This document shows, one piece after another, positions 2,218 to 59,893 of a stretch of 64,000 bases of DNA. The notes under the pieces were generated by a model that saw nothing but the letters and a program-made list of their open reading frames with translations, did not search any database and had not been told where the DNA came from. Source of the DNA: Neobacillus sp. PS3-34. Lineage in GTDB: Bacteria > Bacillota > Bacilli > Bacillales > Cytobacillaceae. The stretch lies in the NCBI RefSeq assembly GCF_030915465.1, contig NZ_CP133267.1:930001-994000 (forward strand), read 5' to 3'. The first letter of the stretch is position 1. Each line of letters begins with the position of its first letter. Made by a program: the position numbers and the translations under genes.

Positions 2218-2990
2218 TTATTTTTGCTTTCCGACAGTAATCCGCAATTTTTCTTTTTTTGTTCTGCCTTCAAGTGAGGTGATTTTTGCACGGCGATGCC
2301 CACGGACTGATATAAGGTCACCTTCATCACACTCGAATGATGGATTTTCGATGACTGTCCAATTCACTTTTACATGTCCCTGCTGGATTAATAACTGTGA
2401 TTTTTGCCTGGATAAATTGTGAATACCCGATATGACTGTATCAAGCCTGAGCGAAGAGACTGTTATAGAGGCCTCAGACCATGATTGACTGATTGAAATA
2501 GCCTGTTGAAGGGGTAAGTCCAACAGCTTGACTGCAGCTTTTCCTATTGAAACAAGCTGAAGCATTAAATAATCCTTTACCTCATTGGCAGCAAAAAATT
2601 GAATCCTGTCACCTTCAAAAATGATGTCTCCAAATTTACCTCTTTTTAGCCCTAACGACATTAAGCTGCCCAAAACCTGAGGGTGCTCAATCGTCACAAA
2701 TTTCGAAGGATAGTCGATTTCAAACAGGCTGATTTGGAAATCATCAAGGTCGGCACTGCTGTAGTCCGGGAAGAGTAAAGCCCTGTTTCTTTCTGTCCCA
2801 TCACTGCCGCCAAATACCTCCCATTTCACACCTGCATTTTCTCCGATCAATGTCTTTAATATATGCTGCTCCCTTGGGTCAAGAAAGTCTGTTAATTTCG
2901 GAGCATAAGCATTTTCTACATAGTCCTGCCAATTCAGCACCTGATCGATAAAATCTCGCTCCTCGGCCTGAAATGCTGATAGATATTCAT
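2218..2990 (-). CDS. ylmH: S4-domain RNA-binding protein YlmH (reading frame interrupted)
   Basis: This member of the YlmH family has a C-terminal S4 RNA-binding domain (about residues 180-240, VKVNWTVIENPSFECDEGD). YlmH has been linked to ribosome-associated quality control. The start MNIYQHFR at 2988-2990 and the rest of the protein (from about residue 10, DFIDQVLNWQDYV) are in different frames. Adding one base in the AGGCCG sequence at 2965-2968 restores a 257-aa protein, the length of the B. subtilis protein. The break coincides with GGCC, so I treat it as a probable consensus error. The gene lies between ylmG and divIVA, as in other Bacilli. Confidence 0.88.
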
Positions 2991-3024
2991 AAGCTCCCTC
3001 TTATCCTTTAAATCTTAACAAAAA

Positions 3025-3043
3025 AGGGACTGGTTCTGTCCCT
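3025..3043 (-). terminator. Intrinsic terminator after ylmG
   Basis: The minus strand forms AGGGAC - 7-base loop - GTCCCT followed directly by TTTTTTG. It separates ylmG from ylmH and probably reduces read-through into ylmH. Confidence 0.7.
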
Positions 3044-3053
3044 GATGAGTCTT

Positions 3054-3317
3054 TTATACGAGCCATATAAATAATTTATGAAGGCCACGGGACGCCAGGT
3101 TCAAGACCATGAAGGCGACAATTGGCGAGATATCGATCATTCCTAGCGGAGGAATGATCTTGCGGAATGGTTCCAGATAGGGTTCACAAATCCGCTCCAT
3201 AAATCTGCCGACTGCACTATTTTGAGCATTTGGAAACCAGGACATTAAAATATATATAATCAATATCCATGAGTAAAAATAAAGCGCTTTTTGCAAAAGA
3301 TCGAACAAAATGACCAT
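3054..3317 (-). CDS. ylmG: YggT-family membrane protein YlmG
   Basis: This is a small integral membrane protein of 87 aa of the YggT family with two predicted membrane segments, about residues 8-27 (LYFYSWILIIYILMSWF) and 62-80 (SPIVAFMVLNLASRGL). The conserved inter-helix sequence NAVGRF...CEPYLEPFRKIIPP is present (here SAVGRFMERICEPYLEPFRK). It lies six bases after sepF in the ylm cluster. The family is linked genetically to cell division, but no biochemical role is established, and none is claimed here. Confidence 0.9.
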   Translation of the reverse strand: MVILFDLLQKALYFYSWILIIYILMSWFPNAQNSAVGRFMERICEPYLEPFRKIIPPLGMIDISPIVAFMVLNLASRGLHKLFIWLV

Positions 3318-3323
3318 TAAATT

Positions 3324-3761
3324 CTACCACCTCGAATCGTTTAAATCATGTTCCTGCATGATTTCAGATATATTGCCTGATACTTCTACATTGTCAGGGG
3401 TACATAAAAAGATGCTGCTGCCGATTCTTTGGATATCCCCGCCAATTGCATAGACGGTCCCGCTTAAAAAATCAACAATCCGTTTTGCCTGGTCATGGTC
3501 AATGCGTTGGAGATTGACCACTACAGCCCTGCGGTTTTTTAAATGATCGGCAATATCCTGAGCCTCAGCATATACACGTGGCTCGACAAGTACAACCTTA
3601 GAGGATTTTTGAACGCTTTGCAGGCTGACAACATTTTGCGGTTTTGCGGCTGGCTGTCTTTGTGGTTTAACAGGTTCAGCTTCTTCAACGTATTCCTCTT
3701 CCGTATCATCATATTCATCATCTAAAAAGAAAAATGTTTTTATTTTTGTTTTAATGCTCAT
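3324..3761 (-). CDS. sepF: Cell division protein SepF
   Basis: SepF bundles FtsZ filaments and anchors them to the membrane through an N-terminal amphipathic helix ([17 protein letters not shown]). Then comes a variable acidic linker and a C-terminal DUF552 domain (about residues 55-140, [19 protein letters not shown] to [16 protein letters not shown]). The start at 3759-3761 follows GGAGGTGCA, and its A overlaps the ylmE stop codon (TAATG), indicating translational coupling. The product is 145 aa. FtsA, its functional partner at the Z ring, is encoded about 7 kb upstream. Confidence 0.96.
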
Positions 3762-4449
3762 TACTGCACCTCCCAATCATTTTTTCCTACTAGAGCGGTT
3801 CCAATCCTTACCATAGTAGCGCCTTCTTCAACAGCAATTGAAAAGTCATTCGACATGCCCATTGATAGCTCCTTGCAGGGTGCGTGGCTGAAATAGCATT
3901 CCTGAACCTTTATCTGCAAATCCTTCAATGTTTTAAAGCATTGGCGGAGCATGCTTTCATCCTCCGTAAGCGGAGCCATGGTCATAAGGCCTCTACGCTA
4001 ATGTTATGGTATGTGCCAAGCTGTTCAATAAAGGTTACAACTTCCCCAGGCTGCAAGCCGTGCTTTGAATCCTCCCCGGATACATTGACCTGGACAAGGC
4101 ATTTTACCTTACCTTGTGAACGTTTATTGATTTCCTCCGCCAGCGAAATTCGGTCAAGCGAATGGATATACTCCACTTTATCAATGATGTTCTTTACTTT
4201 TCTCGTTTGAAGGCTGCCGATAAAATGGAAAAAAGGCTTGTCCCCCAAAGCTTCCCATTTTTCGAGAAGCCCTTCGTCCCTATTTTCACCAAGGTTGAGG
4301 ATACCTGCTTCCACAGCCTCCCTTGCTCTTTCTGTACTCACATATTTAGTGACGGCAATAATTTTTACATCTTCTGCATTTCTGCCTGTTTTATGGCAGG
4401 CTTGTTCTATTTGAAGCTTTATACTTGCCAGATTTGCAGCAACATTCAT
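3761..4449 (-). CDS. ylmE: PLP homeostasis protein, YggS/PROSC family (reading frame interrupted)
   Basis: This pyridoxal-5'-phosphate binding TIM-barrel protein of the YggS family helps balance vitamin B6 and amino-acid pools. The N-terminal 155 residues include the PLP-lysine segment IIAVTKYVS (about residue 30) and [13 protein letters not shown]. The C-terminal 74 residues include SMGMSNDF and [13 protein letters not shown], the phosphate-binding part. They are joined by a break at GAGGCCTTATG (GGCC at 3988-3991). One added base gives the expected [14 protein letters not shown] and a 229-aa protein. The start overlaps the ylmD stop, and the stop overlaps the sepF start. Confidence 0.88.
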
Positions 4450-5697: not shown

Positions 5698-6474
5698 AGC
5701 TTTGGATATTTTTATTCATTTGTTTGATGGCTGCTTTCTCAAGCCTTGACACCTGGCGTGTGAAATGCCAATTTCATCTGCGACTTCCATTTGTGTTTTG
5801 CCCTGAAAAAATCTCTTGCGAAGAATCAATTTTTCCCGCTCATTTAGTCTTCTCATACCCTCTTTTAGAGCGATTTCCTCAATCCAATTTATATCCTTAT
5901 TTCGTTCATCGCTCAATTGGTCCATAACATATATAGGATCCCCGCCATCATTATAGATGGGCTCAAATAAGGATACAGGATCTTGAATCGCATCAAGGGC
6001 AAAAACAATTTCCTCATGTGGCACTTCCAAAACCTTAGCAATTTCTTCAGCTGTCGGCTCACGTGAAGTTGCACTCATTAACCGTTCTCTAACCTGTAAG
6101 GCCTTGTAGGCTATATCCCTTAGTGACCTGGATACACGGATAGGATTATTATCACGCAAGTATCTGCGAATTTCACCTATGATCATGGGTACTGCATAAG
6201 TGGAAAACTTAACGTTTTGACTTAAATCAAAGTTATCTATGGATTTCATTAGGCCGATACAGCCAACCTGGAACAGGTCATCTACAAACTCACCACGATT
6301 ATTGAACCTCTGAATGACACTTAACACAAGTCGTAAGTTTCCGTTAACGAGTTTTTCCCGCGCCGTAATATCACCATCTTGCATCTGCCTGAAAAGCAAT
6401 CTCATTTCTTCGTTTTTTAATACAGGAAGTTTTGATGTATCTACACCGCATATTTCAACTTTATTTCGAGTCAA
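5696..6474 (-). CDS. sigG: RNA polymerase forespore sigma factor SigG (C-terminal frame break)
   Basis: Sigma-G directs late forespore transcription. All sigma-70 regions are visible: region 2 (FVDDLFQVGCIGLMKSIDNF, QNVKFSTYAVPMIIGEIRRY), region 3 (SRSLRDIAYKAL) and region 4 with the helix-turn-helix. The frame breaks just after KTQMEVADEIGIS at 5754-5758. Adding one base gives the conserved tail (Q)AQVSRLEKAAIKQMNKN and a stop at 5696, for 259 aa. At the break a conserved Gln reads as His, and true CAGGCCCAG (with GGCC) would explain both changes. The start is taken as TTG at 6472-6474 because TAAGGAGGG lies directly upstream and the protein family begins (M)xRNKVEICGVD. Confidence 0.92.
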
Positions 6475-8863: not shown

Positions 8864-10001
8864 TTAGCGTCTGCGGTTGCGATTGCGCAGGAATGTAGGA
8901 ATATCTAGAGCATCTTCCTGGGAAACAGATGTATTTCTCACTGGTTCCTGCTGGACTTCTTCCCTTTTTGGCTGCTCTCTTTTGACTGTTCCAATATTAG
9001 GCTTAGCCTGTCCAAACGCTGGTCGCGTCATCTTAGGCTGAGAGGATTCTTCATTAAAGCCAGTCGCAATTACTGTAACAATGATCTCATCTTTAAGAGT
9101 TTCATTAATTACAGATCCAAATATCATGTTTACTTCTTGGTCAGATGCAGAAGCAACAATATCTGCAGCTTCCTGAACTTCATACAGGCTCAAATTTGCA
9201 CCGCCTGTAATATTCATTAACACACCCTGAGCTCCGTCAATGGATGTTTCCAGTAATGGAGAGCTGATAGCTTTTTTAGCAGCTTCTGCCGCGCGATTTT
9301 CACCTGCCGCAACCCCGATTCCCATAAGAGCAGAACCTTTGTTGGACATGATTGTTTTTACATCGGCAAAATCAAGGTTAATCAAGCCTGGTACAGCGAT
9401 TAAGTCTGAGATACCCTGGACACCCTGGCGAAGTACATTATCCGCTTCGCGGAATGCTTCAAGCATCGGAGTGCTTTTATCAACGATTTCAAGTAGTCGG
9501 TCATTCGGGATAACAATTAAAGTATCCACAGCTTCTTTCATGGAAGCGATACCTCCAGAAGCCTGGTTTGAACGTTTTTTCCCTTCGAAGGTAAACGGCC
9601 ATTGTTACCACACCTACAGTTAATGCCCCAAGTTCTCTTGCAATTTGGGCAATAACAGGAGCTGCACCCGTTCCTGTACCACCGCCCATTCCGGCAGTTA
9701 CGAACACCATATCCGCACCGCGAAGTGCCTCTTCAACCTGTTCACGGCTTTCTTCTGCAGCCTTTTTACCCACTTCCGGATTTGCACCGGCACCAAGACC
9801 GCGGGTAAGCTTTGCCCCAATTTGCATTTTAACCTCTGCTTTTGACAGGTTTAATGCTTGAGCGTCTGTATTTACGGCGATAAATTCCACACCCTGAACG
9901 CCATGCTCAATCATCCGGTTAACTGCATTGTTTCCTCCGCCGCCTACACCGATGACTTTTATCGTAGCTAGTTGGTCTAAATTAGTATCAAACTCTAACA
10001 T
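8864..10001 (-). CDS. ftsZ: Cell division GTPase FtsZ (reading frame interrupted)
   Basis: FtsZ polymerizes with GTP into the cytokinetic Z ring. The N-terminal part has the nucleotide-binding [13 protein letters not shown] segment (about 18-30) and the tubulin signature GGGTGTG at residues 106-112. The C-terminal part has the [15 protein letters not shown] region and ends with the conserved partner-binding tail [13 protein letters not shown]. The two parts are in different frames. At ACAATGGCCG (GGCC at 9597-9600), removing one base restores [20 protein letters not shown] and a 378-aa protein. Division in most bacteria needs FtsZ, so a true loss is implausible. It lies 42 bases after ftsA. 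Confidence 0.95.
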
Positions 10002-14245: not shown

Positions 14246-15154
14246 TTACTTTCGCCCGATTATTTCTACTTCCGTTTCCATTTTGATTTCGTATAAATCG
14301 TAAATAGTATCCTTTACATGCTGGATGAGCGCCAGCACATCTTCAGCGGTCGCGGCTCCCGCGTTTACAATAAAATTCCCATGCATTTCCGAAATTTTCG
14401 CTCCGCCTATACTATGGCCCTTCAAGCCTGCAGCTTCAATTAATTTCCCTGCATAGTTAGGAAGAGGGTTGCGGAAGATACTGCCTGCACATGGAAAATT
14501 CCATGGCTGCGTTTCTTTTCGATAGTCTTTATTTTTCTTTATTTCTGCCGTGATTGCTTCTTTGTCTCCTTTTCGGAGCTGAAAGACTGCTTCCACTACC
14601 ACACCCGGCATTTTCTTTTGGAGAACAGACGATCTGTAGGAAAACTCCATTTCCGCATTTGAAAGCCATTCCATCGTCCCATCCTCAAATAGTATTAAGG
14701 CTTTCGTTAAAATTTTTGAAATGTCCGAGCCGTGAGCTCCGGCATTCATATAAACTGCTCCGCCGACAGAACCAGGGATTCCCCCTGCAAATTCAAGCGC
14801 CTGATAATCCCTGTTTACTAATCATTGTTGCAAAGCTTACGAGCGAATGCCCGCCTCCAACCTTCACTTCTGAATCATGTACTTCAAGCTGATCAATGCC
14901 TGAACCAAGCTTAATCACGGCTCCTTCGATCCCTTTATCGGATACAAGAAGATTTGACCCTCTTCCAATTGCACGCCATTTAAGGTTTTTCGTTTTGATA
15001 AAATCCATTGCCTTCCTTAAATTATCAGTTGATGAAGGCTCAATAAAAATATCTGCCGGCCGCCAATTTTTATGGTAGTGTGATTGGAAAGCGGTTCGTA
15101 CTCTTTCACTTTTCCTATTTGCAAGCTTTTTAATTCGTTAACTAATCCGTCCAT
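14246..15154 (-). CDS. murB: UDP-N-acetylenolpyruvoylglucosamine reductase MurB (two frame breaks)
   Basis: MurB reduces UDP-GlcNAc-enolpyruvate to UDP-MurNAc with NADPH and FAD. FAD-binding sequences are visible: [14 protein letters not shown] (about 60-75) and, after the second break, [18 protein letters not shown]; the catalytic region [18 protein letters not shown] and GNFIVN follow. Breaks lie at GGCGGCCGG (GGCC at 15058-15061, one base missing) and at AGGCGCTTGAA (14797-14802, one base extra relative to AGGCCTTGAA). Correcting both gives 302 aa beginning [14 protein letters not shown]. The start at 15152-15154 follows GGGAGG. It lies after murG, as in B. subtilis. Confidence 0.92.
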
Positions 15155-15216
15155 ATTTACCTCCCTATCTTACTTAAAACGGGGTTAATGTAGTCTATGC
15201 TGATCTCTTTTTTAGG

Positions 15217-16319
15217 CTACTTCTGTTTTGTATTTGTAATTTGCTTCATTACCTTATAGAGCCTTCCCGCGGAATCCGGTACTCCCATTTTTGTCGCCTT
15301 TATCTTCATATCCTTTTGTTTCTCTTTATTAAGCATCACACTATCAATTTTTTGCAGGAGAGCCTTCGAGTTCAAATCTTTTTCAAGAAGAAGCTCAGCG
15401 GCCCCACCATCACTGAGTGACCTTGCGTTCTTCTCCTGATGATTATTTGTTACATATGGGCTCGGTATTAAGATACTCGGGATACCCAAAGAGGTTAACT
15501 CAGCAAGTGTGGTCGCACCTGCTCTCGATACAACAAGATCAACACCAGCGAGAACTTCAGGCATATTATGGATGAATGGCTTAATGACCACATTCTGAGG
15601 ATTGCCGACAAGGTCGACTTCTTTTTTTACATCCTCGAAATGAGCATCACCCGTTACATACAATATTTGATACGGTTTATCAGCAAACTCTGCCAAAGAC
15701 CTCACAACCGATTCATTAATCGGCCTCGCTCCCCTGCTCCCTCCAAATATAAGGACAGCAGGCAGATTTGTTTTTAATCCTGTAGAAAGCCTTCCACGTA
15801 TCCCGTCCTGGCCGCGCACCTCTGATGCACGGGGATTCCCGGTAAAAACTACCTTTTCTTTTGGGAAATATTCTTCTGCTTCCTTAAAGCAAACAGCGAT
15901 TTTGTTAACATACCTGCTTAAAAATTTATTGGTCAATCCCGGCACGCTGTTTTGTTCATGAATGATTGTTGGGACACGTAACTTAGCTGCCGCATAAACA
16001 ACAGGCCGCAAACATACCCTCCTGTCCCAATTACTACATCTGGCTTAAATTCTTTAAGCATTTTCTTGCTGTCCCTGACGCCCTTAAGAAATCTCAGAAC
16101 CGTTTTTATGTTATCAAATGAAAGCTTCCTTTTAAATCCTGTTATATGTATTGATTTGAATGGAATATTCTCTCTTGGGACAATTTTGCTTTCCAGCCCA
16201 TTTTCTGTTCCGATATATAAAAATTCATCATCTTCACTTTCTTTTTGAATCTCCCTTATAAGGGCCAGCGCCGGATATATATGTCCGCCGGTTCCCCCTC
16301 CGCTAACAGCGATTTTCAT
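15217..16319 (-). CDS. murG: UDP-GlcNAc:lipid I N-acetylglucosaminyltransferase MurG (reading frame interrupted)
   Basis: MurG makes lipid II from lipid I at the inner membrane face (GT28 family). The N terminus [20 protein letters not shown] carries the first glycine loop, and the C-terminal half carries [14 protein letters not shown], the donor-binding part [20 protein letters not shown] and [13 protein letters not shown] frame break lies at TGCGGCCTGTT (GGCC at 16004-16007); one added base restores [17 protein letters not shown] and a 367-aa protein. It is the gene after spoVE; a TATACT box at 16393-16398 on the minus strand is a possible -10 element for it. Confidence 0.94.
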
Positions 16320-16545: not shown

Positions 16546-17645
16546 TCAATATCTTGCATATCGGCTTATATTCAGCAGAACGCCAATTGCCATCAGCATA
16601 AGCGTTAAGGAAGAGCCTCCGTAACTTAGAAAAGGCAAGGTAATTCCTGTTACCGGCATTAATCCCGTGACAACTCCGATATTAATCATTACCTGAATGG
16701 CAACCATGGCAATGATTCCGACCGCCAGAAAGCTTCCATACAAATCCGGGGCTCCAAGTGCAATCCGAATCCCTCTCCATAGCAAAAGAGAAAACAGCAG
16801 TAAAATCAGGGATCCGCCTATAAATCCAAGTTCCTCTGCCAGTATCGCGAAAATAAAATCAGTCTGTGGTTCTGGCAGATAGAAAAACTTCTGGCGGCTT
16901 TCCCCCAATCCGAGCCCAAATAATCCACCTGGACCGATTGCGTAAAGTGACTGGATAATTTGGAATCCGCTTCCCAATGCATCGGACCATGGGTCCAAAA
17001 AAGAAGTTATCCTTTTAATTCGATAGGGAGCAGAAATAATTAATCCTATAAAACCAGCCACCCCTAGCAGCGCAAGCCTGCAAAATGGCTGATTCTTGCA
17101 CCAGCTACGAATATCATAACTACACAGGTCCCCATCATTACTGTTCCAGTTCCGAGATCTGGCTGCAGCATTATCATCGCAAAGGCAATAAAAGCGAGTC
17201 CTAGTGAAGGGACCAGACCCTTCTTAAATGAGGTAATCAGCTTTTGACGTTCGGATAAATATTTTGCCAGAAACGCAATCATCGCCAGCTTCATAAACTC
17301 TGAAGGCTGTATTGAAAAGGCTCCTACACCAATCCAGCTTCTTGAACCGTTACGTACATTGCCGACACCTGGTATGAGTACAAGTACAAGTAAAACAAAG
17401 CAGACAATTAAGATAACCTTTGACCATGTCCGCCAGGTCCAATAATTAATATTCATAATAAAAAACATGGCGGCAATTCCTACTCCTGCAAAAAGCATCT
17501 GCCTTTTAGCAAAGAAGAAAGAATCATGAAATTTATAATCTGCCCAGACTGCACTCGCACTGTATACCATAATTAGTCCTATTGCCAGCAGTGTAAAAGT
17601 TACAATTAATAAAATGAAATCAGGAGTCGTTTTCTTTGTCGGCAC
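16546..17645 (-). CDS. spoVE: Stage V sporulation protein E, SEDS glycosyltransferase (reading frame interrupted)
   Basis: SpoVE is the SEDS-family peptidoglycan polymerase for spore cortex and works with the class B PBP SpoVD. The protein has about ten membrane segments. Signature sequences are MVYSASAVWA, GVGAFSIQPSEFMKLAMI, MLQPDLGTGTVM and PVTGITLPFLSYGGSS. The break is at GCAGGCTTGCG (17074-17079): reading GCAGGCCTTGCG restores HFAGLALLGVAGFIG and exactly 366 aa, the B. subtilis SpoVE length. The start is GTG at 17643-17645, (M)PTKKTTPDF. The position between murD and murG supports SpoVE over FtsW. Confidence 0.93.
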
Positions 17646-17717
17646 CGCTACACACCTCAACCGATAGGATTGGAGCCTGAAAGTTATGCCTGGAACATTT
17701 CCCGCATAGACAAGCCC

Positions 17718-19070: not shown

Positions 19071-20044
19071 TTACAACCACACCTCAATATAAATTCCTAG
19101 AATCGCAAACAATAAACCTACACTCCAAAAAGTGACAACCACTTTCCACTCAGACCAGCCGATTAATTCGTAATGATGATGAAGCGGGCTCATCCTGAAA
19201 ATTCTTCTCCCTGTTGTTTTAAAAGAAATAACCTGAAGGATAACGGACAATGTTTCAATTACAAACACTCCGCCAATGATAATCAGCAGAAATTCAAGCT
19301 TTGTTAAAATGGCAACTGCGGCAATAGCCCCGCCGAGTGCCAGGGACCCTGTATCTCCCATAAAAACCTTGGCAGGATGTGCATTAAAAACGAGAAAGCC
19401 AAGAACAGCTCCAACTACTGCGACACAAAAAATGGCAATCTCAAACTGTGATTGATTCCATGCTAACACCGCAAACGCTCCAAACGCAATTGCAGCCGTG
19501 CCGGAAACTAAACCATCCAATCCATCAGTAAGATTCACCGCATTGGAGAATCCAACAAGCCAAAAAATAATTAAAATGACAAAAAACCAGCCTAAATCAA
19601 AAGAGTTATTACTAAAAGGAAGGGTAATTTCTGTTGGAAATTCATTTTGTTTATATATTAAATAAAACACGATTGAGATAATAATCTGTCCCAATAGCTT
19701 TTGCCTAGAGGTAAGACCTAAATTTCTCTTTAACACTACCTTAATAAAATCATCAAGAAAACCAAGCAGACCGAAACCAAAGGTAACCAGGATCAAGAGA
19801 TACGTTTTTACCGTAGGTTCAGCAAACTTGCCTGTCATTACCAGAGCAGTAATGATGACAGAAAATAAGATCATCAGCCCCCCATTGTCGGTGTACCTGA
19901 TTTTTTTTGATGCGATTTAGGTCCTTCTTCCCTTATGCTTTGTCCAAATTTCAACCTTCTTAAGAAGGGAATAAAAACTGGAGAAATCAAAACAGTAATT
20001 AAAAAGGCCAAAATGATTGTGAAGAATATAACTTGCTCCAGCAT
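19071..20044 (-). CDS. mraY: Phospho-MurNAc-pentapeptide transferase MraY (reading frame interrupted)
   Basis: MraY transfers phospho-MurNAc-pentapeptide to undecaprenyl phosphate to make lipid I. It is a ten-helix membrane enzyme. Visible motifs are [14 protein letters not shown] (about residues 43-56), [20 protein letters not shown] and [12 protein letters not shown], which includes catalytic and Mg2+ aspartates. The frame breaks at ATGGGGGGCTGATG (19876-19883). One added C (GGCC) restores GGLMILFSV and 324 aa, the usual length. The start at 20042-20044 follows GGAGGGG. Confidence 0.95.
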
Positions 20045-22087: not shown

Positions 22088-24008
22088 TCAATCATTGTTT
22101 TTTCCAAAATATAGCCTGATGGTTGAACCTTCCTTCAATTTAACACCAGCCTCGGGCGATTGCTTCACCACAACATCACCTTCTCCGCTTGCATCAATCT
22201 TTAAATTTACCATCTGTTCCTGTAGCTCGCTTTTAGTCATTCCTACCACATTTGGAACTTTGATTAACGGAGTATCTGTCCATTTCATTTTCTTCTCGAT
22301 CTGATTTTTTCTTGGAGGAACTCCTAAGCCCTTAATCCATCCTTCATGATATTTCCGACAATCGGTGCTGAAACGACACCGCCGAACTGTACAGTACCTT
22401 TCGGATTATCGACAGCAACGTACACTACCAGCTGAGGGTCATCAGCTGGTGCAAATCCTATAAAAGAAACGATATGATTGTTTTCTAAGTAATGCCCGTT
22501 TTGAGCTTTTTGCGCTGTCCCCGTTTTGCCTCCAATACGGTATGAATCGACAAAGGCATTTCCCCCTGTCCCCTGTGCAACAACACTTTCAAGGGCATTA
22601 CGTATCTTTTTCGAGGTCTCTTCAGAAATAACTTTCCGCTTCGCTACAGGCGATTTCCTCATGACAACTTCTTTTGTAACTGGATCGATGAGTTCCTTGG
22701 CAATATAAGGGGTATAGAGAGTGCCTCCGTTGACCGCTGCCGAAACTGCAGCAACCTGTTGGATCGGGGTTACTGAAACACCCTGTCCAAACGCTGTAGT
22801 AGCCAATTCGACCGGCCGACCCTATTCAGATTAAATAATATTCCAGAACCTTCACCCTGCAAGTCAATTCCTGTTTTTTCACCGAACCCAAAGCCTTTAA
22901 TATATTTAAAGAGCTTTTCCTTCCCGAGCCTTTCCCCCAATTCAACAAATCCAGGGTTACAAGAATTTTGGACAACCTCTAAGAAACTCTGGCTTCCGTG
23001 ACCGCCAGCCTTCCAGCATCTCAGCCTTGCCCCGGCAACTTCTGCAAAACCAGGATCATAAAAATGCTCTTTCTCCAGATCTACCTTTCCTTCTTCAAGA
23101 GCCGCGGCAAGAGTGATGATCTTGAAAGTCGAACCAGGTTCATACGTGCTCCAGACAGGCAAATTTCGGTTATAAACTTCCTGCGGGACATTTCGGAAAT
23201 TTGCTGGATCAAAATTGGGCCTGCTCGACATCGCAAGGATTTCCCCATTATTGGGATTCATTGCGATGGCAATCAATCCGTCTGGATTATAGGCAGCCTG
23301 GGCGTTATCCAGCTCTCTTTCCATTATTGTCTGTATTTTGGTATCTACCGTCAGCTTTAGGTCCAGGCCATTGATCGGGGGCTGATAATCGTCAGCCATG
23401 TCATTCATCCGCTCACCTTTAGCATTGGCATAAAACTTAACGGAACCTTCTTCACCACTTAACTCTTTATCATAAAACTGTTCCATGCCCATTAAGCCCT
23501 GATTGTCAATTCCGGCAAAGCCAAGAACATGAGAAAGATAGCTGCCATACGGATAATATCTTTTTGAATCTTCACCAATATAAACCCCATCAAGGCCAAG
23601 GGCTCTAATTTCTTTAGCTTTTTCATGAGAAATTTTTCTTCCCCCTGGCAGCCTGACCATTGATTCACCCATTGTAATGTCTTTATAGGTCTTTTCTTTA
23701 TTTAACTTTAGGACTGCGGCTAATTTTTCTGCTGTAGGTCCAGGATTTTTAATTTGCCTTGGAACGACATATACAGTTGGTGCACTGATGTTTGTCGCTA
23801 GTGCAACACCATTCCGATCGATTATTTCACCCCTTTTGGGTTGAAAAGGTATATTCCGGCTCCACGACCCTTTTGCAAGATCTGTTAATTTATCCCCAAG
23901 AAAAAATTGTACATATCCAAGACGGACGTCGATTATTAAAAAGGTCAGAATGCCGATGAACAATGCGATCATTAGCCGTTTTCTTACAGTTACATTAGAC
24001 ACACGCAT
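22088..24008 (-). CDS. spoVD: Stage V sporulation protein D, class B penicillin-binding protein (two frame breaks)
   Basis: SpoVD is the transpeptidase for spore cortex synthesis and pairs with SpoVE. An N-terminal membrane helix (about 13-32), a dimerization domain (PKRGEIIDRNGVALATN) and the transpeptidase motifs EPGSTFK (active Ser), SCN and GGKTGTAQK are present. A C-terminal PASTA domain (VPNVVGMTKSELQEQM) follows. Two cysteines 19 residues apart (RCWK and NSCN) match the redox pair controlled by StoA in B. subtilis. Breaks at GTCGGCCGGTCG (GGCC at 22814-22817) and AGGGCTTAGG (22327-22332) each need one base; the result is 640 aa. Confidence 0.95.
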
Positions 24009-24093: not shown

Positions 24094-26338
24094 TTAATCA
24101 TGGACAGTATCTTCTTCGTTTTCTTTGCCCTTTGCAGAAGAACTATTCTTTGCCTTTTGCTTTCCCTTGCTCTTTTTTGTATTTTCCTCAAAAAGCTGTT
24201 CAGGAGATTGCAATTCGATAATCAGGTTGTCCCCATTTTTAACAGGAGTTCCTTTTTTCATGCTCTGTTTATAAGCATAACCGCTGCCAGCCGTATGGAG
24301 CTTAATATTCAGGAGCCTCGCTACCTTCATGGCATCTCTCAGCGACCATCCTTTTAAATCAGGCATGACTGCATTTCCTCCAGTATAAATGACCACCTTT
24401 TCACCCTCGAGAATGGTTTTACCTCCTTTTGGAAGCTGCCCCTCCACTTTACTGCCATTACCAAGAACCACTGTATCAAGACCCTCCGCCTGCAATTCTT
24501 TAACAGCAGCATCTGATGACTGGCCAATGATGTCAGGTATTTCACCGGTAACTGGTTTCTCCTGTTTTGATGGCTGAATGTTCATGTATTGAAGGCTGCT
24601 CTTCATTACTGGATCAAAAATCATGGATACGGGTATCGATCCTTTAAAGTAGCTGTCTATTTTAGGCTGCTGAACAGCGACATAAACAATTAGCTTCGGG
24701 TCGTCTTTTGGTGCCATCCCTAAAAATGAAAATACGTAGTTCTCGGGACCGGTCAAGTATTTCCCATCTGGTCCAGGCATTTGTGCTGTTCCCGTTTTCC
24801 CGGCAACACTGTAGCCGTCAATTTTATACCGGCTTCCTGTCCCTTTTGGGGAGGTAACAACCGTTTCGAGAATATCCCTAACCTTTTTTGCAGTTTCCGC
24901 AGAAATAGGATTGGACACTACTTCCGGCTCTGTTTGCTTAATTATCTTGCCACTATCATGATCAACGATTTTCTCGACAACATGAGGCTTCATCATCTTC
25001 CCGCCATTCGCTACGGCTGTAGCTGCCTGGATTTGCTGGATTGGAGTGATGGCTGTTCCCTGCCCAAAAGCAGTTGTGGCTTTTTCTATTGGCCAGTTAA
25101 ATTGTATTTTTCCTGAAGTTTCATAAGGAAGATCTATTCCTGTTGGCTTATCAAAACCAAATTTTGTTAAATAGGTTCTCAATTTATCAAAACCTAATTT
25201 TTCATTTGCAAGTTTTGCAAATGCAACGTTAGAAGATCGCTGGACTCCCTCCAAAAAAGTAATAGGACCCCATCCAACATAATTATGGTCATGGATGGTG
25301 CTATTTGAAATTTTATAAGATCCAGACTTGTATATCTCACTCGGATTGAATTTATTTTCTTGAATGGCAGCCGATAAGGTAAAGATTTTCATCGTCGAAC
25401 CCGGCTCAAAGGAGGTTTCAATTGCTTCGTTATGCCAACTATTCTGGATTCCTTCCCTTGTTGTTGGATGAAATGTAGGTCTCTCGCCATTCCCAGTATT
25501 TCACCTGTTTTTGGATCTGCTACAATAGCAATTATTTTTTTCGGCTTGTATTCCTTATCCACTTTATCGATTGAATCCTCAAGGAAGGTCTGAATTTTCT
25601 TATCAAGAGTTAAATAAATATCATTTCCATTTTGTGCGGGAGTAATTTTTTGCTTGCCGTCCGGGAGTAAATAACCCCACAAATCACTTTGATAATTAAT
25701 GGTTCCATTTTTTCCGGTAAGGTAGGAATTTAAGGTTTTTTCCACTCCCAATTTTCCTTCGGTTTTATAAGTTCCATCCTTTTGTTGCTTGCGCTCAACA
25801 AAACCGACCACATGGGATGCGAAAATGCCATTTGGATAAAACCGCTTAGAGTCACGGGTGAAGGTAATCCCCGGGAGATGGAGCTGCTCAATTTCTGTTT
25901 TGGTTTGATGTGAAATATCCCGGCCGCTCTTCCGAATTCCACCTGGAAAACACCTTTTTTGGTTAGCTTGTTATAAATATCGGATTCTTCCATATCAATG
26001 TATTTAGCTAATTCCCGCGCCGTTTTTTCCGGTTTAGTCACATGCATTGGCTTTTTTGGATTGGTGGTCATTTTTTTACTTAGAATCGCAATTAAGGTAT
26101 ATGCTGAGGTGTCCTCCGAAACGACCTCCCCTTTTCGGTCGTAAATCGTTCCTCTCCCTGCTTCCAATACGCCCTGTTTCATATATTTTTGCTGAGCCCT
26201 TGCAGCTAAAGGCTGCCCAGCAGCTTCACCTGTAATTTGAATCGTGAAATATCGGAAAATCAATATAAAAAAGAGCAGGCTGAAGAATAAAAATAATCCC
26301 GCTGCTCCAACATTCATATTTTTCTGTTTCTTGATCAT
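24094..26338 (-). CDS. pbpB: Class B penicillin-binding protein PBP2B (two frame breaks)
   Basis: PBP2B is the division transpeptidase. The N terminus has a membrane segment (about 9-30) followed by EAGRGTIYDRKGEVVSEDT. The transpeptidase motifs are EPGSTMK (active Ser), SSN (QRSSNVAF) and GKTGTAQ. The C terminus carries two PASTA domains (IPDIIGQSSDAAVKELQ and VMPDLKGWSLRDAMKVA) and a Lys/Ser-rich tail. Breaks lie at AGAGCGGCCGGG (GGCC at 25922-25925) and ATGGCGAGAGACC (25481-25488); one base each gives 748 aa. The ATG overlaps the ftsL stop codon. Confidence 0.94.
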
Positions 26339-26710
26339 TTTCCTTGCACTACCTTAACATTATTTTCATTTAGCTGCAGTCCAAGCTTCCTCGCCTTTCC
26401 CAAATTCGTTCATATGTACTTAATTCACTTACCTGATCTTTGAGGTCACTGTTTACTTTTTCCTGTTCCTTCATTGAAACCTGAATATCCTGTATATCTT
26501 TGTTAACACTATAAATTTTCGCTTGATTGGAAATCATATGGACTGCGCCAAACCCAACCATTGCTGCGAAGGTAATTCCCAGTACCTTTTCCCCAGGTGT
26601 TAGCCAAAACTTTTTAAAACTGGCCTTTTAGGCTCTATAACCTGCCCTTGCTGCTGTTGTTGCTGTTGTTGCTGTTGTTGCTGCTGCATTTTTCTTGCAA
26701 GATTGCTCAT
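26335..26710 (-). CDS. ftsL: Cell division protein FtsL with N-terminal polyglutamine tract (two frame breaks)
   Basis: FtsL is a small bitopic divisome protein forming a coiled-coil complex with DivIC and DivIB. The start MSNLARKM at 26708-26710 is followed by 13 consecutive glutamines, then GQVIEPKRPV. A membrane segment (GEKVLGITFAAMVGFGAVHM) and a coiled coil (YSVNKDIQDIQVSMKEQEKV) come next. Breaks lie at TTTTGGCTAAC (26601-26606; TTTGGCCTAAC restores) and AAAGGCGAGG (26391-26396; AAAGGCCGAGG restores). The corrected length is 125 aa, close to B. subtilis FtsL. The stop overlaps the pbpB start (ATGA). Confidence 0.9.
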
Positions 26711-28300: not shown

Positions 28301-28333
28301 CAAAAAACTTCACCTAAGTGGTGAAGTTTTTTG
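28301..28333. terminator. Bidirectional terminator upstream of mraZ
   Basis: A 14-bp perfect stem, CAAAAAACTTCACC with GGTGAAGTTTTTTG, and a 5-base loop give A- and T-rich flanks on both strands. It isolates the mraZ promoter from upstream transcription. A related hairpin lies at 29051-29073. Confidence 0.75.
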
Positions 28334-28361
28334 TTTTTAAAATGTAATTAAGTAAAAGACT

Positions 28362-28432: not shown

Positions 28433-28436
28433 GGGT

Positions 28437-28804: not shown

Positions 28805-28845
28805 AGCACCAATGATCTGGTTTATCGTTCTCATGGGAACGGTAC

Positions 28846-31219: not shown

Positions 31220-32116
31220 TTCAAACCCTCCCTGTTTTGCTCCTTTCCTTTCAAAAGATGGAAAAAGCTTTCTGTTAACGGTCCCTGTTTTTTCTTTTTC
31301 TTCGCTTCTCCCACAACAAATCCCAAAATAGCATCCACTTCAGTCATTCGCTTTGCTTCAATATCTTTCAGCATCGAAGAGCGATTATCCTCTGTTTTTC
31401 TGCATATTTCCACCACCTGCTGAAAATAAGCATCACGATTGTTCAATTCAAGAATATCTGCAATTTCTTCAAACAGGTCCTGAAAGACATTAAAATAAAA
31501 AAGATTATCGATTAACTGTCCATTTTCAACTGAAAGAATGGCAGTCAATGGATTTATCACTGCATTGGCAACCAACTTTCCCAAGAGCATTTCATAAAAA
31601 TCATCTGTTATGACCATTGGGAAATCAGAAGGCCTCTTTGGCCAGCTCTGTTAATAATTCATTATTCCCTTTGAAAACCGCCAATTTAGTCAAGCCCTCT
31701 CCCCTATGGCAAACAGTGAAAGGATTTTCTTTGTAAGCACCGTGCTCCACCGAGCCAACAAACACATTGTCAGAAAGCACATTCGGTAGCAATTCTAAAT
31801 GGCCCATTCCATTTTGCAAAAAAAGTATGCCTTCTTTTTTCCCTTGGGACTTATTGATTAATGCTATCACTTCTTGAAGCTGATATTGTTTTACGGTTAC
31901 AATTGTTAAATCTTCCATTCCCCTGTATTCAGCTATCGGCAGAGCGTTTACATTTGATGTGATATGGAGTCCGTTTTTCTTTACAACAATTCCGTTCCGA
32001 TTAATTTCTTCAGCCTGCTCCTTGGTCCTAGTGTATAAAGTAAGAGGAAAAGCTTGTTTTAGGAGAGCAGCAAATAATAGACCTATTGATCCTGCCCCGA
32101 TAATAGCAATTTTCAT
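31216..32116 (-). CDS. ylbQ: 2-dehydropantoate 2-reductase YlbQ/PanE (reading frame interrupted)
   Basis: Ketopantoate reductase makes pantoate from ketopantoate with NADPH in CoA biosynthesis. The N-terminal Rossmann fold starts MKIAIIGAGSIGLLFAALLK (residues 1-20), then FLQNGMGHLELL and VGSVEHGAYKENP follow. The helical C-terminal domain has KLVANAVINPLTAILSVENG. The frame breaks at GAGGCCTTCTGATTT (GGCC at 31631-31634); removing one base restores the frame and gives about 299 aa. The start MKIAII at 32114-32116 is clear. Confidence 0.88.
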
Positions 32117-33757: not shown

Positions 33758-33796
33758 TTTTTCCTCCCCTTTGTACGGTCTTTTCACCAAATTAAG

Positions 33797-42679: not shown

Positions 42680-43464
42680 TTAAGCTGTCTCCTCCCATTG
42701 CTTGATGACTTTTTTTATTTGATTTATATGCTTCTTTGTTTCTTCTTCTCCCATTTTGATGATTTCTTCAATGTTTGTAAAAGCACGGGAGCTATACGCC
42801 TCTACATGGGCCGAATCATTACATCTGAAGCAGCCTCCCTGGTAATTACTAATTCTGTTTGCATAATATCAATGCTTTGCATAATCACATCATAAATGGA
42901 CGTTATTTCAGCGTTTTTTTTCACCTTTGAAACGTCCACTGCAATCACAATATCAGCACCCATTTCTTTTGCCACTGAAACTGGAACACGGTCAACAACG
43001 CCACCATCAACCAGAATCCGTCCATTTAATTTTTCTGGAACAAAGATTCCCGGAATAGAGATACTTGCCCTTACAGCATCTGAAATGGGGCCTTCACGAA
43101 AAACCACTTTTTCACCAGTCATTAAGTCTGTCGCAACGACAGCAACCGGAATATCCAGGTCTTGGAGATTTTTTCCGTGTGTAAAAACCTTGATTAATTC
43201 CTTTACACGTTTACCGGATATGAATCCCATCTTAGGGACAGTAAAATCAAGATAATATTTTCTTTTAAAAGCTCCTGAAAGTTTATACAAGCGATCCATT
43301 TCAATGCCGGCTCCATAAAAACAGCCTACAAGCGCCCCCATGCTGCTGCCAGCGATCAAATCGATCGGGATACCTTCATCTTTTAATACTTTAATGGCAC
43401 CTAGATGGGCAAAACCTCGGGCTCCGCCTGAACCAAGTGCCAACCCAATCCTCGGTCTCGCCAT
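42680..43464 (-). CDS. ylbK: Patatin-like phospholipase/NTE family protein YlbK (C-terminal frame break)
   Basis: This is a patatin-family serine hydrolase. The oxyanion sequence GSGGARGFAHLGAI (about residues 12-25), the nucleophile elbow GSSMGALVG (about 39) and the catalytic DGG in LVDGGVVDRVP are present. The frame breaks after DVMIRP at CGGCCCATG (GGCC at 42809-42812). One added base extends it by HVEAYSSRAFTNIEEII to a stop at 42680, for 261 aa. It is adjacent to ylbL and divergent from ylbJ, as in B. subtilis. Confidence 0.9.
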
Positions 43465-45644: not shown

Positions 45645-46204
45645 TTATTCCTCTATAGCTTTACGATAAATAGTAACAGCTATTATTCCATATTTTTCAG
45701 TTCTAATTTGCCGCATTTCACCTGCTTCAGCAGGTAAAACCACATCATGGCTGTGTTCACAGACAATGGTACCATCAATGCTTAATAGCGACTGTTCACT
45801 TATTTTTTCCAACAGACTAACCAGCTGCTGTTTCTTATAGGGAGGATCCAAGAAAATATAATCAAACTGCAATTCCCTTTTTATCAGTGCTTTTAATGCT
45901 CTGTCAGCGTCATTTCTGTATACCTCTGACTGTTCCTCAAACCCACACGCTTTAATATTCTCATGGATGGTCTGGATTGCTTTTGGTTCCCTGTCTATAA
46001 AGATAACCTTTTCTAATCCCCTGCTAAGGCCTCTAATCCAAGCCCCCCGCTGCCGGCAAAGAGGTCAAGTCCAGTTCCCCCTTCAAAATAGGGGCCAATC
46101 ATATTAAAAACCGCTTCTTTCACTTTATCTGTAGTAGGTCTTGTCGTGTTGCCTGGCACCGCTTTCAATGGTCTGCCTTTGCAACTTCCTGAAACCACTC
46201 TCAT
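45645..46204 (-). CDS. rsmD: 16S rRNA (guanine966-N2)-methyltransferase RsmD (reading frame interrupted)
   Basis: RsmD methylates G966 of 16S rRNA. The start [18 protein letters not shown] at 46202-46204 and the SAM motif [16 protein letters not shown] (about residues 45-60) are in one frame. The catalytic DPPY motif ([12 protein letters not shown]) is in the next frame. The break follows GAGGCCTTAGC (GGCC at 46028-46031), where one added base restores [16 protein letters not shown] and 186 aa. It corresponds to B. subtilis ylbH. Confidence 0.92.
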
Positions 46205-52753: not shown

Positions 52754-53169
52754 TTAGTCTTTCCTGAACATAAAAGGATGTTTTGGACCTTCTGGAGCTT
52801 TAGGCTGGCTCGGCTGGCTGTTTCCCTGGAATTGTGAAAGCAGTCCCTGAATGGCCCAAGAGCCTGGCTTGCATTGTTAATATAAACCTGCATTTGTCCT
52901 GGATCAATTTTTTTCGCCATACCTGTCAATTGTGACATCCAGTCTCCCTTTTTTTCATCGTCTGCTTCCTTATTTCCGCTTGTTCCTTTCGTGCTATGTT
53001 CGGAACGGAAGGCATTCCACTTTTCATCTTCTTCCCCAAGCAGATACCAGTCTTCATAAAGATCCTGCCAGGAGGACTTCCCGCTGCGCACTTCGTTGAT
53101 TATTTTCGGATTATTTTTCACAAATTCCTTAAACTTCAATACAGATGGGTGCAATTTTTTTTGTTCCAT
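52754..53169 (-). CDS. ylbD: Spore coat-associated protein YlbD (C-terminal frame break)
   Basis: YlbD is reported as a coat component in B. subtilis. It starts MEQKKLHPSVLKFKEFVKNN with WQDLYEDWYLLGEED (about residues 33-47) and a helical DWMSQLTGMAKKIDPGQMQV, cited by its ends. The frame breaks at CTTGGGCCATT (GGCC at 52853-52856). One added base gives LGAIQGLLSQFQG, then a Gln/Pro-rich end PSQPKAPEGPKHPFMF and a stop at 52754, for 138 aa. It precedes ylbE. Confidence 0.87.
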
Positions 53170-54243: not shown

Positions 54244-55326
54244 TTATTTGGCCCATTTTTGAATGAAATTTTGGGTATAGTACTTCTGATAAACACCTAC
54301 ACCCAGATGGGTGAAATCCTTGTTTAATAGTGATTCACGGTGCCCTTTACTATTCAGCCAGCCTTCTACTACAGCTGGTCCATCAGTATAATTTGCCGCA
54401 ATATTTTCGCCAGCTGCCTGAAACACCACTTTTTCAGTTTTCAATCGGTCTGACAGGCTTCCAAATTTCTTAGAGGTATGAGAGAAATCATTATGTTCAA
54501 ACATGTCTTTACTATGGCGATAAGCAGCTTCAGAAATTTTTTCATCCCACTTTAATGCTTTTAAATTATGGCGGGAACGAAGTACATTCGTTATATCGAA
54601 AATTTCTTTTTCCGTACCGTCTTCTATTCCCTTCCACAATGCTTCATCTGGCTGCAAGGGTTCCAGCAATTGGCCCTGTAAGCAAGTTCGTAAGGCCTTT
54701 GCTTAACGATGGTTGCAGCGTCTAAAAACCTCACACTTGAGAGGGTTCCAGTAAATTTATCAATATAAAGCTGAACATAAATATCGCCAAGCTGGAGAAG
54801 GGCGCGTATTTAAATCCATATCAGTCAATTCGAACCGATAAGTATTTCCACTTATATTAATATCGATATTTGCATTGAAAAACTGAGTATTAAAGATCTC
54901 CTCAACTGACTCACCTATTTCAAAAGGAGCCACATTTAAATCCTTCCCCATCGCATAGATGGTTACCACCTTATTATTTTCAACCCCAGCCTGAAGGTAA
55001 TGCGCATTATCTCCATTGTAAATGTACCAGTCATATCCATATATAGATTTATCAATTCTAAGTGGCTTGCCATATGTTTTTATTAATTCATCTATGTTTT
55101 GTCCAATTAGCTTAGAGAGGCCTTCATTGGGCATATCCTGGCGTGAATTAATCTGATTTCCGGACTTTTTCAGAGCTTCAGGCGGCTTCTGGTATACGGA
55201 AGAATCTTCTTTTAATAGAACATCCTTCTCTGTATTATCAGTCAGGCTCACATAAAAACCCACCATTAAAAAAATGGCAACCAGAATTAGTATTCTAAAA
55301 AGTGTCCGCAGAAGCACCCTCCTCAC
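54244..55326 (-). CDS. ylbC: CAP-domain (SCP/PR1) protein YlbC (two frame breaks)
   Basis: This membrane-anchored protein has an N-terminal helix (about residues 7-27), a CAP-associated domain (LIGQNIDELIKTYGKP to FELTDMDL), and a C-terminal CAP domain. The CAP domain carries LRSRHNLKALKWDEKISEAA, HNDFSHTSKKFGSL, AGENIAANYTDGP, and VVEGWLNSKGHRESLLNKDF with HLGVGVY. Breaks lie near ACGCGCCCTTCTCC (54799-54805, likely a GGCC site with two bases missing) and AGGGCCAATTG (GGCC at 54672-54675). Corrected length is about 361 aa. It is cotranscribed with the ylb genes. Confidence 0.83.
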
Positions 55327-56908: not shown

Positions 56909-57040
56909 TTTCACCTCGGCGCTTTTTTGAAGGTTAAAAAAGCAAATTTTGTTGTTTAATCCATTAAATGCATAATATAATTTAATTGTTAATGAATTTA
57001 TTTCGAATTGCTTTAATGGTTTATAGAGAGGGGTACACCA

Positions 57041-58098
57041 TTGTTCGGTCTTTTTAATAAAAAAAGTTTAATCTATCTTTTAATTATTACGGCTATTGCT
57101 ATCTTGCTGTATTATATCTTCCCAGTTTCAATACCGCTAATTTTAGCCTTGATTACTGCGATACTTCTGAATCCATTGACCGAAATGTTGGAAATAAAAC
57201 TTAAATTTAAAAGGCGGAATGCTGTTTTGTCAGTTTTTCTTTCTTTTATGCTTTTAATAGGATTATCAGGTTATTTTATTACAACAAAGGTAGTCACTGA
57301 AGCAGTCAAAATTGTCGAAAACGCTCCACAATATATTAATGACCTCAATTCGGCATGGAATAAAGTTCAAAATAGTTATACGCATGCTTCCAGGAACTTG
57401 CCTTCAGAGGTTGTAAATGAAATAAGCAAACAAATTAACAGTTTCTTAAACAAACTGAGAGTTGATTTGCTAGCTTATGTTAATATTAATAACTTGAAAA
57501 TCCTTTTAACGAATATTCCCAGTTACCTTGTTAGCTTCCTTGTTTATCTAATTGCACTATTTTTATTCCTGCTCGATTTGCCAGAGCTTCGAAGGCGGAC
57601 ATATGCCCATCTAACATCAAAGACAGCAGATAAGGTAAATTTTATGACATCCAGGCTGTCCTATGTCGTCTTCGGTTTCTTTAAAGCGCAATTCCTTGTC
57701 AGCTTAATTATTTTCATTGTGTCATTGATTGGATTATTAATAATTTCACCTGACACAGCTATCGTATTGTCATTAATTATCTGGGGGATCGATTTTATAC
57801 CCATTCTCGGCTCAATCATCATTCTTGGTCCATGGTCGCTTTATCTGCTCCTCCTCGGAAATGTTTCGATGGGAACACAGCTGGCCATTTTAGCAGGTAT
57901 CCTATTAATAATCAGAAGAACAGTCGAACCGAAGGTATTGGGAACACATATGGGGCTTTCACCTTTATCAACTCTCATTGCCATGTATCTCGGCATTAAA
58001 CTGTTGGGTCTCCTCGGATTCATTATCGGCCCCTTCTCCTGATTCTCTTTACCTCAGCAAGAGAGGCTGGAATCATTAAGCTGAATTTTAAAATTTAG
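57041..58098 (+). CDS. AI-2E family transporter, YtvI-like sporulation protein (C-terminal frame break)
   Basis: This PerM/AI-2E family membrane protein has about eight helices. Family sequences include ALITAILLNPLTEML (about residues 38-52), LSLIIWGIDFIPILGSIIIL, GPWSLYLLLLGN and VEPKVLGTHMGLSPLSTLI, and it has a long soluble insertion at about 85-160. The frame breaks at ATCGGCCCCTTCTCC (GGCC at 58028-58031). One added base gives GPLLLILFTSAREAGIIKLN and a stop at 58096, for 352 aa. Start is TTG at 57041-57043 after GAGAGGGG. Homologs include the sporulation-specific YtvI; assignment to it is by similarity. Confidence 0.82.
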
Positions 58099-58099
58099 T

Positions 58100-58127
58100 A
58101 AAAGGACCGGGATTAGCCGGTCCTTTT
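58100..58127. terminator. Bidirectional terminator after the YtvI-like gene
   Basis: AAAAGGACCGG and CCGGTCCTTTT form an 11-bp perfect stem with a 6-base loop, between the convergent YtvI-like and GNAT genes. Confidence 0.85.
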
Positions 58128-58139
58128 CTATGAATATTA

Positions 58140-59312
58140 TTAGAAAAAATCGTAGAAAAATGGTTTTACTGGCGAAATCATTTTTTCAAGCACATTTACC
58201 TCTGACTGTGACCCTTGCAGATAACCCATACTGTAAAGATCTGCTGGCCTTTTATAGCCAAAAAGCATGGCGGTTAAGGCATTTATATTCAGTTTAATTC
58301 CTCTTTGCGGCGGTTGTGCGCAAGTACTTCCCGGTTTATTTTTATACACCTTTATTTCCTCATTCCCGATTAAATAGCTGCCATTATTCCAAGGCGCATA
58401 GGAATCATCAATATGTAAAAAAATCTGTTCATCTGTGTGGGAAAAGGAGTATTTTTTTAAACACGCTTCAGCATCTACGATCCTTGCCATGAAATAGGGA
58501 TAAACTTCAGATTTTTGTTTTGGCTGATGTATAAAGTAAGGGAAATGTTCATGGACAGAAACAAGAATGCTTACTTGATCGACCATGGAATCGTGCTGAC
58601 AGATAAAATTCCACAGCCCCTCTCTTGCTTCTTGATTTAGAGCAGTAATTTCCTGAACATCCATTTTTCTATCGCTTACATTAAAAAGGAGATACCCCGT
58701 TGCCTCATGGTTTTCATTATAATAAACTGCCATTTGACTGTCATGATACACTGACAGCTTCCACCATTCCGTTTCTCTGACAAGCATTCCTGAGAATTGT
58801 GAAGCGTATTTATCATAAACTTCTTCTATTTCTTTATGATGAGTTTCCTTATCATAACGCTTAACGTAACCACCTGGGTTCCCATGAAACTGTAAATCCT
58901 TATTCTCGATTGTTATTTTTTTATTATCAGTGAAAATTTCCCACCCGTAATTTCTATAAAAGGAGATATCAAACGGATGAAGCAGAGATACAATTTCGCC
59001 TTCATCTTTCATTTGCTTCAATGCTTCCGTTATTAATGCCTTTACATATCCTTTTCTTCTGTATTCAGGAAAAGTAGCAACACCTGCTATTCCGCCCATT
59101 TTCCATTTTTTAGTTGAGACCATTATTTCCAAAGGAATAATATGCAGCTTAGCTGCTAATTGCTCTTCCTCATAAATACCTAATATACGGTGATATTTTA
59201 ATCTTTCTTTTCTGCCTTCAATATCTTCATCCTTAATCTTATATTGAAAAGCATACATGGATAATTTCATTGAATCGATATATTGTTCCTCAGTTAAATG
59301 CTTAATTTCCAA
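58140..59312 (-). CDS. GNAT family N-acetyltransferase, Eis-like
   Basis: This 390-aa protein has the Eis/YpcK-like two-GNAT-domain layout. The acetyl-CoA binding motif VATFPEYRRKGYVKALITEA lies at about residues 78-97, and LLHPFDISFYRNYGWEI at about 112-128. A C-terminal sterol-carrier-like domain (about 290-390) contains LNINALTAMLFGYKRPADLY, which in Eis-type proteins closes the fold. The substrate is unknown; some relatives acetylate aminoglycosides, so resistance should not be assumed. The frame is intact. Confidence 0.85.
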   Translation of the reverse strand: MEIKHLTEEQYIDSMKLSMYAFQYKIKDEDIEGRKERLKYHRILGIYEEEQLAAKLHIIPLEIMVSTKKWKMGGIAGVATFPEYRRKGYVKALITEALKQMKDEGEIVSLLHPFDISFYRNYGWEIFTDNKKITIENKDLQFHGNPGGYVKRYDKETHHKEIEEVYDKYASQFSGMLVRETEWWKLSVYHDSQMAVYYNENHEATGYLLFNVSDRKMDVQEITALNQEAREGLWNFICQHDSMVDQVSILVSVHEHFPYFIHQPKQKSEVYPYFMARIVDAEACLKKYSFSHTDEQIFLHIDDSYAPWNNGSYLIGNEEIKVYKNKPGSTCAQPPQRGIKLNINALTAMLFGYKRPADLYSMGYLQGSQSEVNVLEKMISPVKPFFYDFF

Positions 59313-59391
59313 GGTCTTTCCCCCTTAACCATAATCTCTATATACCTTCGCCTAAAAATATCAAATTCCTTCTATTCAATTTTTACTAATA

Positions 59392-59420
59392 AAAAAACGC
59401 CCTTCGATCAAGGCGTTTTT
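59392..59420 (-). terminator. Intrinsic terminator after ctaM
   Basis: AAAAACGCC and GGCGTTTTT with TT/AA closing pairs form a stem of about 11 bp with one bulged base, seven bases after the corrected ctaM stop codon. Confidence 0.75.
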
Positions 59421-59426
59421 CATGCT

Positions 59427-59893
59427 TTAAAAACCTAAAATTGCTTTTATTACAGAGGTTGTTTCTCCGCCTCTATAGAAAATATACAGGAGCATGTACA
59501 CTGCTACGCCCGTAATCGCGGTAAAAAACCAGATTATACTTGTAATACGCCAAGCTTACGATGGATAGACAATTTATTTTTAAATCCAGTAAGCAGCGTC
59601 ACTATCCCAAAAATAGCGCCTGTTGTTGCTAAAAAGATATGGAAAACCAGGAACACAGTATAATAAATTTTAATATTTGCTGGTCCTCCAAAGGAAGTAT
59701 TTCCAATAAAAATCGTTCTGCTGGCATAAATCAAAAAGAAAATTAGGGCAAATATTGCAGCAGCAATCATTGTTTTTTTGTGTGCCTGGATGTTTTTCTG
59801 GCGTATTTGCCACCATCCAATCGCAACAGTTAGGGCACTCAAGACAATAAATGATGTGCTGATCGTAGGTAATACTGGCAATGAGTAATTCAT
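59427..59893 (-). CDS. ctaM: DUF420 family heme-copper oxidase assembly protein CtaM (C-terminal frame break)
   Basis: CtaM (DUF420, YozB-like) is a four-helix membrane protein needed for haem A/aa3-type oxidase function in Staphylococcus. It starts MNYSLPVLPTISTSFIVLSA, with IRQKNIQAHKKTMIAAAIFA, YASRTIFIGNTSFGGP and FHIFLATTGAIFGIVTL. The frame breaks at CTTGGCGTATT (59547-59552). CTTGGCCGTATT restores HRKLGRITSIIWFFTAI and a stop at 59427, for 155 aa. It lies next to ctaG and the ctaDEF genes, in line with its role. Confidence 0.85.

Follow-up and report, generated by a model that had tools for sequence, protein, structure and literature searches.

The broken reading frames in the analysed stretch of DNA (64,000 nt, C1:930001-994000 of a single-contig 4.9-Mb genome; hereafter the window) are, with high confidence, consensus errors of the assembly at GGCC, likely via GG(5mC)C in native long reads, and not a product of gene decay; as sequencing errors, they leave the genes themselves most likely intact. 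The initial annotation of the window had read the breaks as consensus error at modified GGCC, and this reading is supported by the enrichment of breaks at GGCC, an enzyme pair of the matching type, the variation among the rRNA copies, a distant stretch of the same chromosome, and clean assemblies of relatives that carry the pair.

The references were G001 and G003, draft genomes of the same genus in 20 and 100 contigs, respectively. Breaks were located by frameshift-tolerant alignment of their proteins to the window, and a break was kept only if placed by both. The nearest named MurE records are 70-75% identical, with labels that include Neobacillus, Mesobacillus, Bacillus sp. and 'Paenibacillus sp. 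BSR1-1'. Of the 65 window genes that aligned, 19 hold the 27 breaks on which G001 and G003 agree. Genes were grouped by position (19 in the window, 27 in the second stretch described below; 22 and 27 if grouped by reference name). Breaks placed by a single relative, three in the window and 20 in the second stretch, were left out before counting; 21 of the 23 lack both GGCC and a half site (GGC or GCC). The initial annotation had counted about 30 breaks in 22 genes, and its observation is confirmed. Sixteen of the 17 positions that it listed have a confirmed break at a distance of 8 nt or less, and the 17th (53813) is in a part of the window with no alignable sequence in the relatives.

The genes ftsZ, murB, murG, mraY, spoVE, spoVD and sigG, identified by NCBIfam, are all broken, and broken genes identified by Pfam include the rsmD-like, DivIC-family and carboxyl transferase genes. 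The protein encoded at the pbpB position is PBP2X-like, but under the cut-off of that model, and the Cons_hypoth95 gene at 45648..46204 is presumably rsmD. The broken genes are as follows (coordinates, strand, product, breaks).

2221..2990, minus strand, S4-domain (PS_II_S4-like) protein gene; break 2962-2966, net -1, GGCC
3776..4449, minus strand, YggS-family PLP protein gene; break 3992-3993, net -1, GGCC within 2 nt
5699..6474, minus strand, sigG; break 5750-5760, net -1, GGC
8867..10001, minus strand, ftsZ; break 9599-9602, net +1, GGCC
14249..15163, minus strand, murB; breaks 14798 (net +1, GCC) and 15057-15061 (net -1, GGCC)
15220..16319, minus strand, murG; break 16003-16007, net -1, GGCC
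16549..17660, minus strand, spoVE; break 17071-17078, net -1, GCC
19074..20044, minus strand, mraY; break 19875-19885, net -1, GCC
22100..24008, minus strand, spoVD; breaks 22325-22329 (net -1, GCC) and 22813-22817 (net -1, GGCC)
24130..26338, minus strand, penicillin-binding protein, pbpB position; breaks 25483-25493 (net -1, GCC) and 25923-25933 (net -1, GGCC)
26338..26710, minus strand, DivIC-family, ftsL position; breaks 26392-26399 (net -1, GCC) and 26622-26629 (net -1, GGCC)
31225..32116, minus strand, ketopantoate-reductase-like (ApbA); break 31630-31636, net -2, GGCC
32220..33772, minus strand, carboxyl transferase; breaks 32529-32536 (net -1, GGCC), 33323-33327 (net -1, GGCC within 2 nt), 33568-33572 (net -1, GCC) and 33687-33694 (net +2, GGCC)
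42686..43464, minus strand, patatin-like; break 42806-42807, net -1, GGCC within 2 nt
45648..46204, minus strand, rsmD-like (Cons_hypoth95); break 46020-46030, net -1, GGCC
52757..53169, minus strand, ylbD-like coat protein; break 52853-52857, net -1, GGCC
54247..55266, minus strand, CAP-domain protein (ylbC in the initial annotation); breaks 54673-54677 (net -1, GGCC) and 54798-54801 (net -2, GGC)
57020..58095, plus strand, AI-2E-family transporter; break 58028-58038, net -1, GGCC
59430..59893, minus strand, DUF420 (ctaM in the initial annotation); break 59547-59548, net -1, GCC

The window also holds a repeat of about 130 bases (about 28847-28975, within 28327-29051) with dozens of matches in the same genome and in G001-G003; a longer stretch around it recurs at several places in the genome.

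Of 104 aligned genes in the second stretch (C1:3860001-3960000; 100 kb, 2.9 Mb away), 27 are broken, with 32 breaks in all. This stretch was chosen via L135, the one of 12 sampled 20-kb stretches of the genome to which alignment was applied (the query L126 gave no syntenic stretch); all 12 entered the GGCC-depletion count. In total, 59 breaks were found in 122 kb of doubly aligned coding sequence, with a net change of minus one in 51, minus two in three, plus one in three and plus two in two; one break of the second stretch is poorly placed (interval of 70 nt). For event counts with single references, thresholds of at least 55% identity and at least 80 residues were used. At these thresholds, the window of this genome shows 25 events over 46 kb with one reference and 27 over 47 kb with the other; in the second stretch, each reference gives 39 (76 and 74 kb). 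In the swap control, no events were found with G001 as the target (49 and 67 kb), and five and four with G003 as the target (50 and 67 kb); hence, some apparent breaks occur without the problem of this genome.

Fourteen of the 27 breaks in the window hold GGCC inside the break interval ±2 nt, whereas random placement in coding sequence (3000 trials) produced 0.43 such breaks on average and three at most. The distance to the nearest GGCC is bimodal, with 17 of 27 breaks at 0-2 nt and the other ten at 87 nt or more; GGC or GCC lies within 4 nt of all ten. The clustering described in the initial annotation thus stands, but its figure of about 20 breaks at GGCC is slightly high, the count for the window being 17. 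For both stretches together, 34 of 59 breaks are 0-2 nt from GGCC and the other 25 all at least 31 nt away. With the interval widened to ±3 nt, 31 of the 59 breaks contain GGCC, where random placement in coding sequence would give 1.0; GGC or GCC is present in 22 of the remaining 28 (background about 21%), and the last six lack even a half site at this distance.

Counted by site, a break touches 34 of 244 GGCC sites in both stretches (13.9%). The next tetramer is AGGC, which overlaps GGCC (35 of 839 sites, 4.2%), and values for the remaining all-GC tetramers are 1.7-3.5%. Away from GGCC, breaks were found at 12 of 1589 G/C runs of at least three (0.8%), at three of 967 A/T runs of at least five, and at 21 of 1888 GGC/GCC sites. 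The frequency of indels at GGCC relative to other words had been set beforehand as decisive, and GGCC came out on top, well above other GC-rich words and homopolymers. In the doubly aligned coding sequence of the window, breaks affect 17 of the 105 GGCC sites and spare the other 88, in agreement with the earlier view that the error is partial.

At half-site breaks, a relative carries GGCC at the matching place in six of 22 cases (background 9-10%), as expected if the true site is GGCC. For full-site breaks, GGCC was present in the relatives in eight of 15 cases in the window (background 25%), and in three of 16 in the second stretch (background 34%), the latter with no clear excess. Depletion of GGCC was also considered as a trace of lost sites. 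The window has 128 GGCC against a Markov expectation of 162, but G003 (130 against 168) and G001 (71 against 102) are equally depleted, so that the depletion in the window is uninformative on lost sites.

For the rRNA comparison (genes only), the full-length copies at 1.97-2.28 Mb were used, five each of 23S and 16S; not included were two 23S fragments and, for 16S, the shortened copy L150 and four fragments. Of the 29 variable columns in 23S, 18 are no more than 3 nt from GGCC, a zone that takes in 2.2% of columns, and 11 lie outside it; in 16S, this zone takes in 4.7% of columns and holds five of the ten variable columns, the other five lying outside. Clusters of indels are at GGCC in three of three cases in 16S and three of four in 23S; one 23S cluster was not flagged. 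One length difference in 16S is common to four of the five copies, in a stretch which we take to be universally conserved. Such variation among working rRNA copies, which have no reading frame, is not expected. With a like bias in the rRNA and in the second stretch, the GGCC errors are independent of gene and of reading frame. Partial or shortened 16S/23S copies are present at C1:3271756-3276390, C1:2262506-2263727 and C1:2194966-2196368; these could be misassemblies or real remnants.

The initial annotation had envisaged a GGCC-specific methyltransferase elsewhere in the genome, and a candidate is present. Profile search of the genome gave a single match to PF00145, i.e. a sole C5-cytosine methyltransferase; PF02384 gave two matches, and PF01555 gave none. 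The methylase (444 aa, or 416 aa from a later start) has M.HaeIII as its best PDB match (query 136-422 to 1dct 25-318, E 4.3e-61), and the alignment runs through the C-terminal recognition part. An adjoining, divergent gene (L031:7084-8805; locus of the pair, C1:4777083-4780189) encodes a restriction enzyme of 573 aa that matches the Type II profile PDLC03444 REase_II with 796 bits over positions 1-572 of 576; BsuRI has 576 aa. A methylase with 68% identity is fused to an RE_NgoPII domain, and NgoPII cuts GGCC. Both genes of the pair have open frames; GGCC occurs twice in the methylase gene and is absent from the restriction enzyme gene. The M.HaeIII match and the adjoining restriction enzyme suggest a restriction-modification system of the HaeIII/BsuRI type, with GGCC as the predicted target of methylation and cleavage, for which the error pattern offers indirect support. 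The pair adjoins Druantia-like genes (L031:4621-19928; C1 about 4774620-4789927), for which a 1866-aa DruE4-like helicase, a DruK-like nuclease and a weakly DruL/DruF-like protein are predicted.

The restriction enzyme is present in five of 193 family genomes searched, including the genome studied here, and the other four carriers have an adjoining methylase with 77-85% identity. As a control, two-reference breaks were determined in the 20-kb division cluster of 12 genomes (the four carriers and eight others); one single-reference break each in G023 and G013 was left out. The own division cluster contains 12 breaks and 37 GGCC sites, with six breaks at GGCC and six at half sites. No breaks were found in the four carriers over 160 GGCC sites; in these assemblies (20 kb each) the errors are absent despite the same methylase, and the methylase and its sites alone therefore do not break genes in the organism. 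Two carriers, G023 and G056, have contigs above 4 Mb, and may thus be long-read genomes that are free of the problem. Six of the eight genomes outside the five carriers have no breaks in this cluster; the other two are G048 (six breaks, none at GGCC or a half site) and G051 (three breaks, none at GGCC, two at half sites). The six breaks in G048, a single-contig genome (L183, G048:C1:1065500-1085499), are all net gains, several of them at A/T runs, and represent a different error class.

Long-read error from sequence context alone, at GGCC or G/C runs and independent of methylation, is an improbable source of the breaks. GGCC with an adjoining third G or C is broken more often (11 of 49) than plain GGCC, as such a context effect would have it; yet plain GGCC is itself broken at 23 of 195 sites (11.8%) as against 0.8% for G/C runs of at least three elsewhere, and none of the nine breaks in the non-carriers G048 and G051 is at GGCC. 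Less credible still is genuine gene decay or mutation concentrated at GGCC, with the methylase or the restriction enzyme as possible drivers: the breaks do fall at the predicted target of the genome's own enzyme pair, but ftsZ, murB, murG and mraY are required by a living cell, the rRNA copies are affected too, the division cluster of the four other carriers is free of breaks, and deamination of 5mC would lead to substitutions, whereas 54 of 59 breaks are a net loss of one or two bases. Recoding at GGCC, by programmed frameshifting or some other device, would fit one motif common to the breaks of many genes, and can virtually be discarded, since the same genes are unbroken in relatives, untranslated rRNA is hit at the same motif, and 210 of the 244 GGCC sites in aligned coding sequence are free of breaks.

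For the preferred explanation, consensus error at methylated GGCC, the following course is proposed. Throughout the genome, the inner cytosine of GGCC is very probably methylated through the HaeIII/BsuRI-type pair, and native DNA would have been sequenced as long reads, in all likelihood by nanopore and with a basecaller untrained on this mark. The signal would be distorted at methylated GGCC, and the consensus would lose or alter a base at a fraction of the sites, mostly with a net change of minus one.

The genome will carry false pseudogenes, including essential division genes, and false 16S/23S heterogeneity, by which studies of gene loss, pan-genomes or 16S would be misled; about two thousand breaks are extrapolated for the chromosome from the 59 in 122 kb if the rate is uniform. 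Conversely, a probable methylation target can be pointed to from the assembly alone. We tentatively suggest, though with somewhat less than even confidence, that a finished genome left unpolished carries an accidental methylome in its pattern of errors: motif-centred breaks, in rRNA copies as well as in single-copy genes, would name the target of an active methylase from the consensus and not from raw signal. If true, bulk use on public long-read genomes could provide specificities for uncharacterised methylases and flags for repolishing; here, it was tried on one genome.

This kind of artefact is already known from Dcm sites and from R10.4.1 typing. Consensus errors at Dcm sites (CCWGG) were reported in nanopore assemblies (PMC6591954), and as far as described there, they resemble the present errors in being centred on a 5mC target, in a motif that default basecallers handle poorly, and in being partial; here, however, the motif is GGCC, in a finished Bacillaceae genome, and was found from the assembly alone, with the platform deduced. 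Strain-specific, methylation-related errors in R10.4.1 nanopore typing are strongly reduced by PCR amplification (PMC11389150), and a motif was affected at specific occurrences only (PMC12392509). From the accessible parts of both reports, the errors likewise share a conserved motif of which some occurrences are affected; both worked from reads, the former with PCR controls and with base ambiguities as the errors, whereas here only the consensus was used and mostly indels were scored. Among the matches listed for literature on GGCC, nanopore or frameshift errors, no title concerned a GGCC case, and PMC5816649 and PMC10305163, in the portions available, are not decisive on GGCC errors. The product of the HaeIII methylase is given as GG(5mC)C in the available part of PMC7559349. 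The present pair resembles HaeIII/BsuRI-type systems, to the extent that PMC7559349 and PMC10899764 describe them in the parts at hand, in its C5-methylase closest to M.HaeIII and the adjoining 573-aa Type II restriction enzyme; it differs from them in its Druantia-like neighbourhood, and in that specificity and activity are predicted here.
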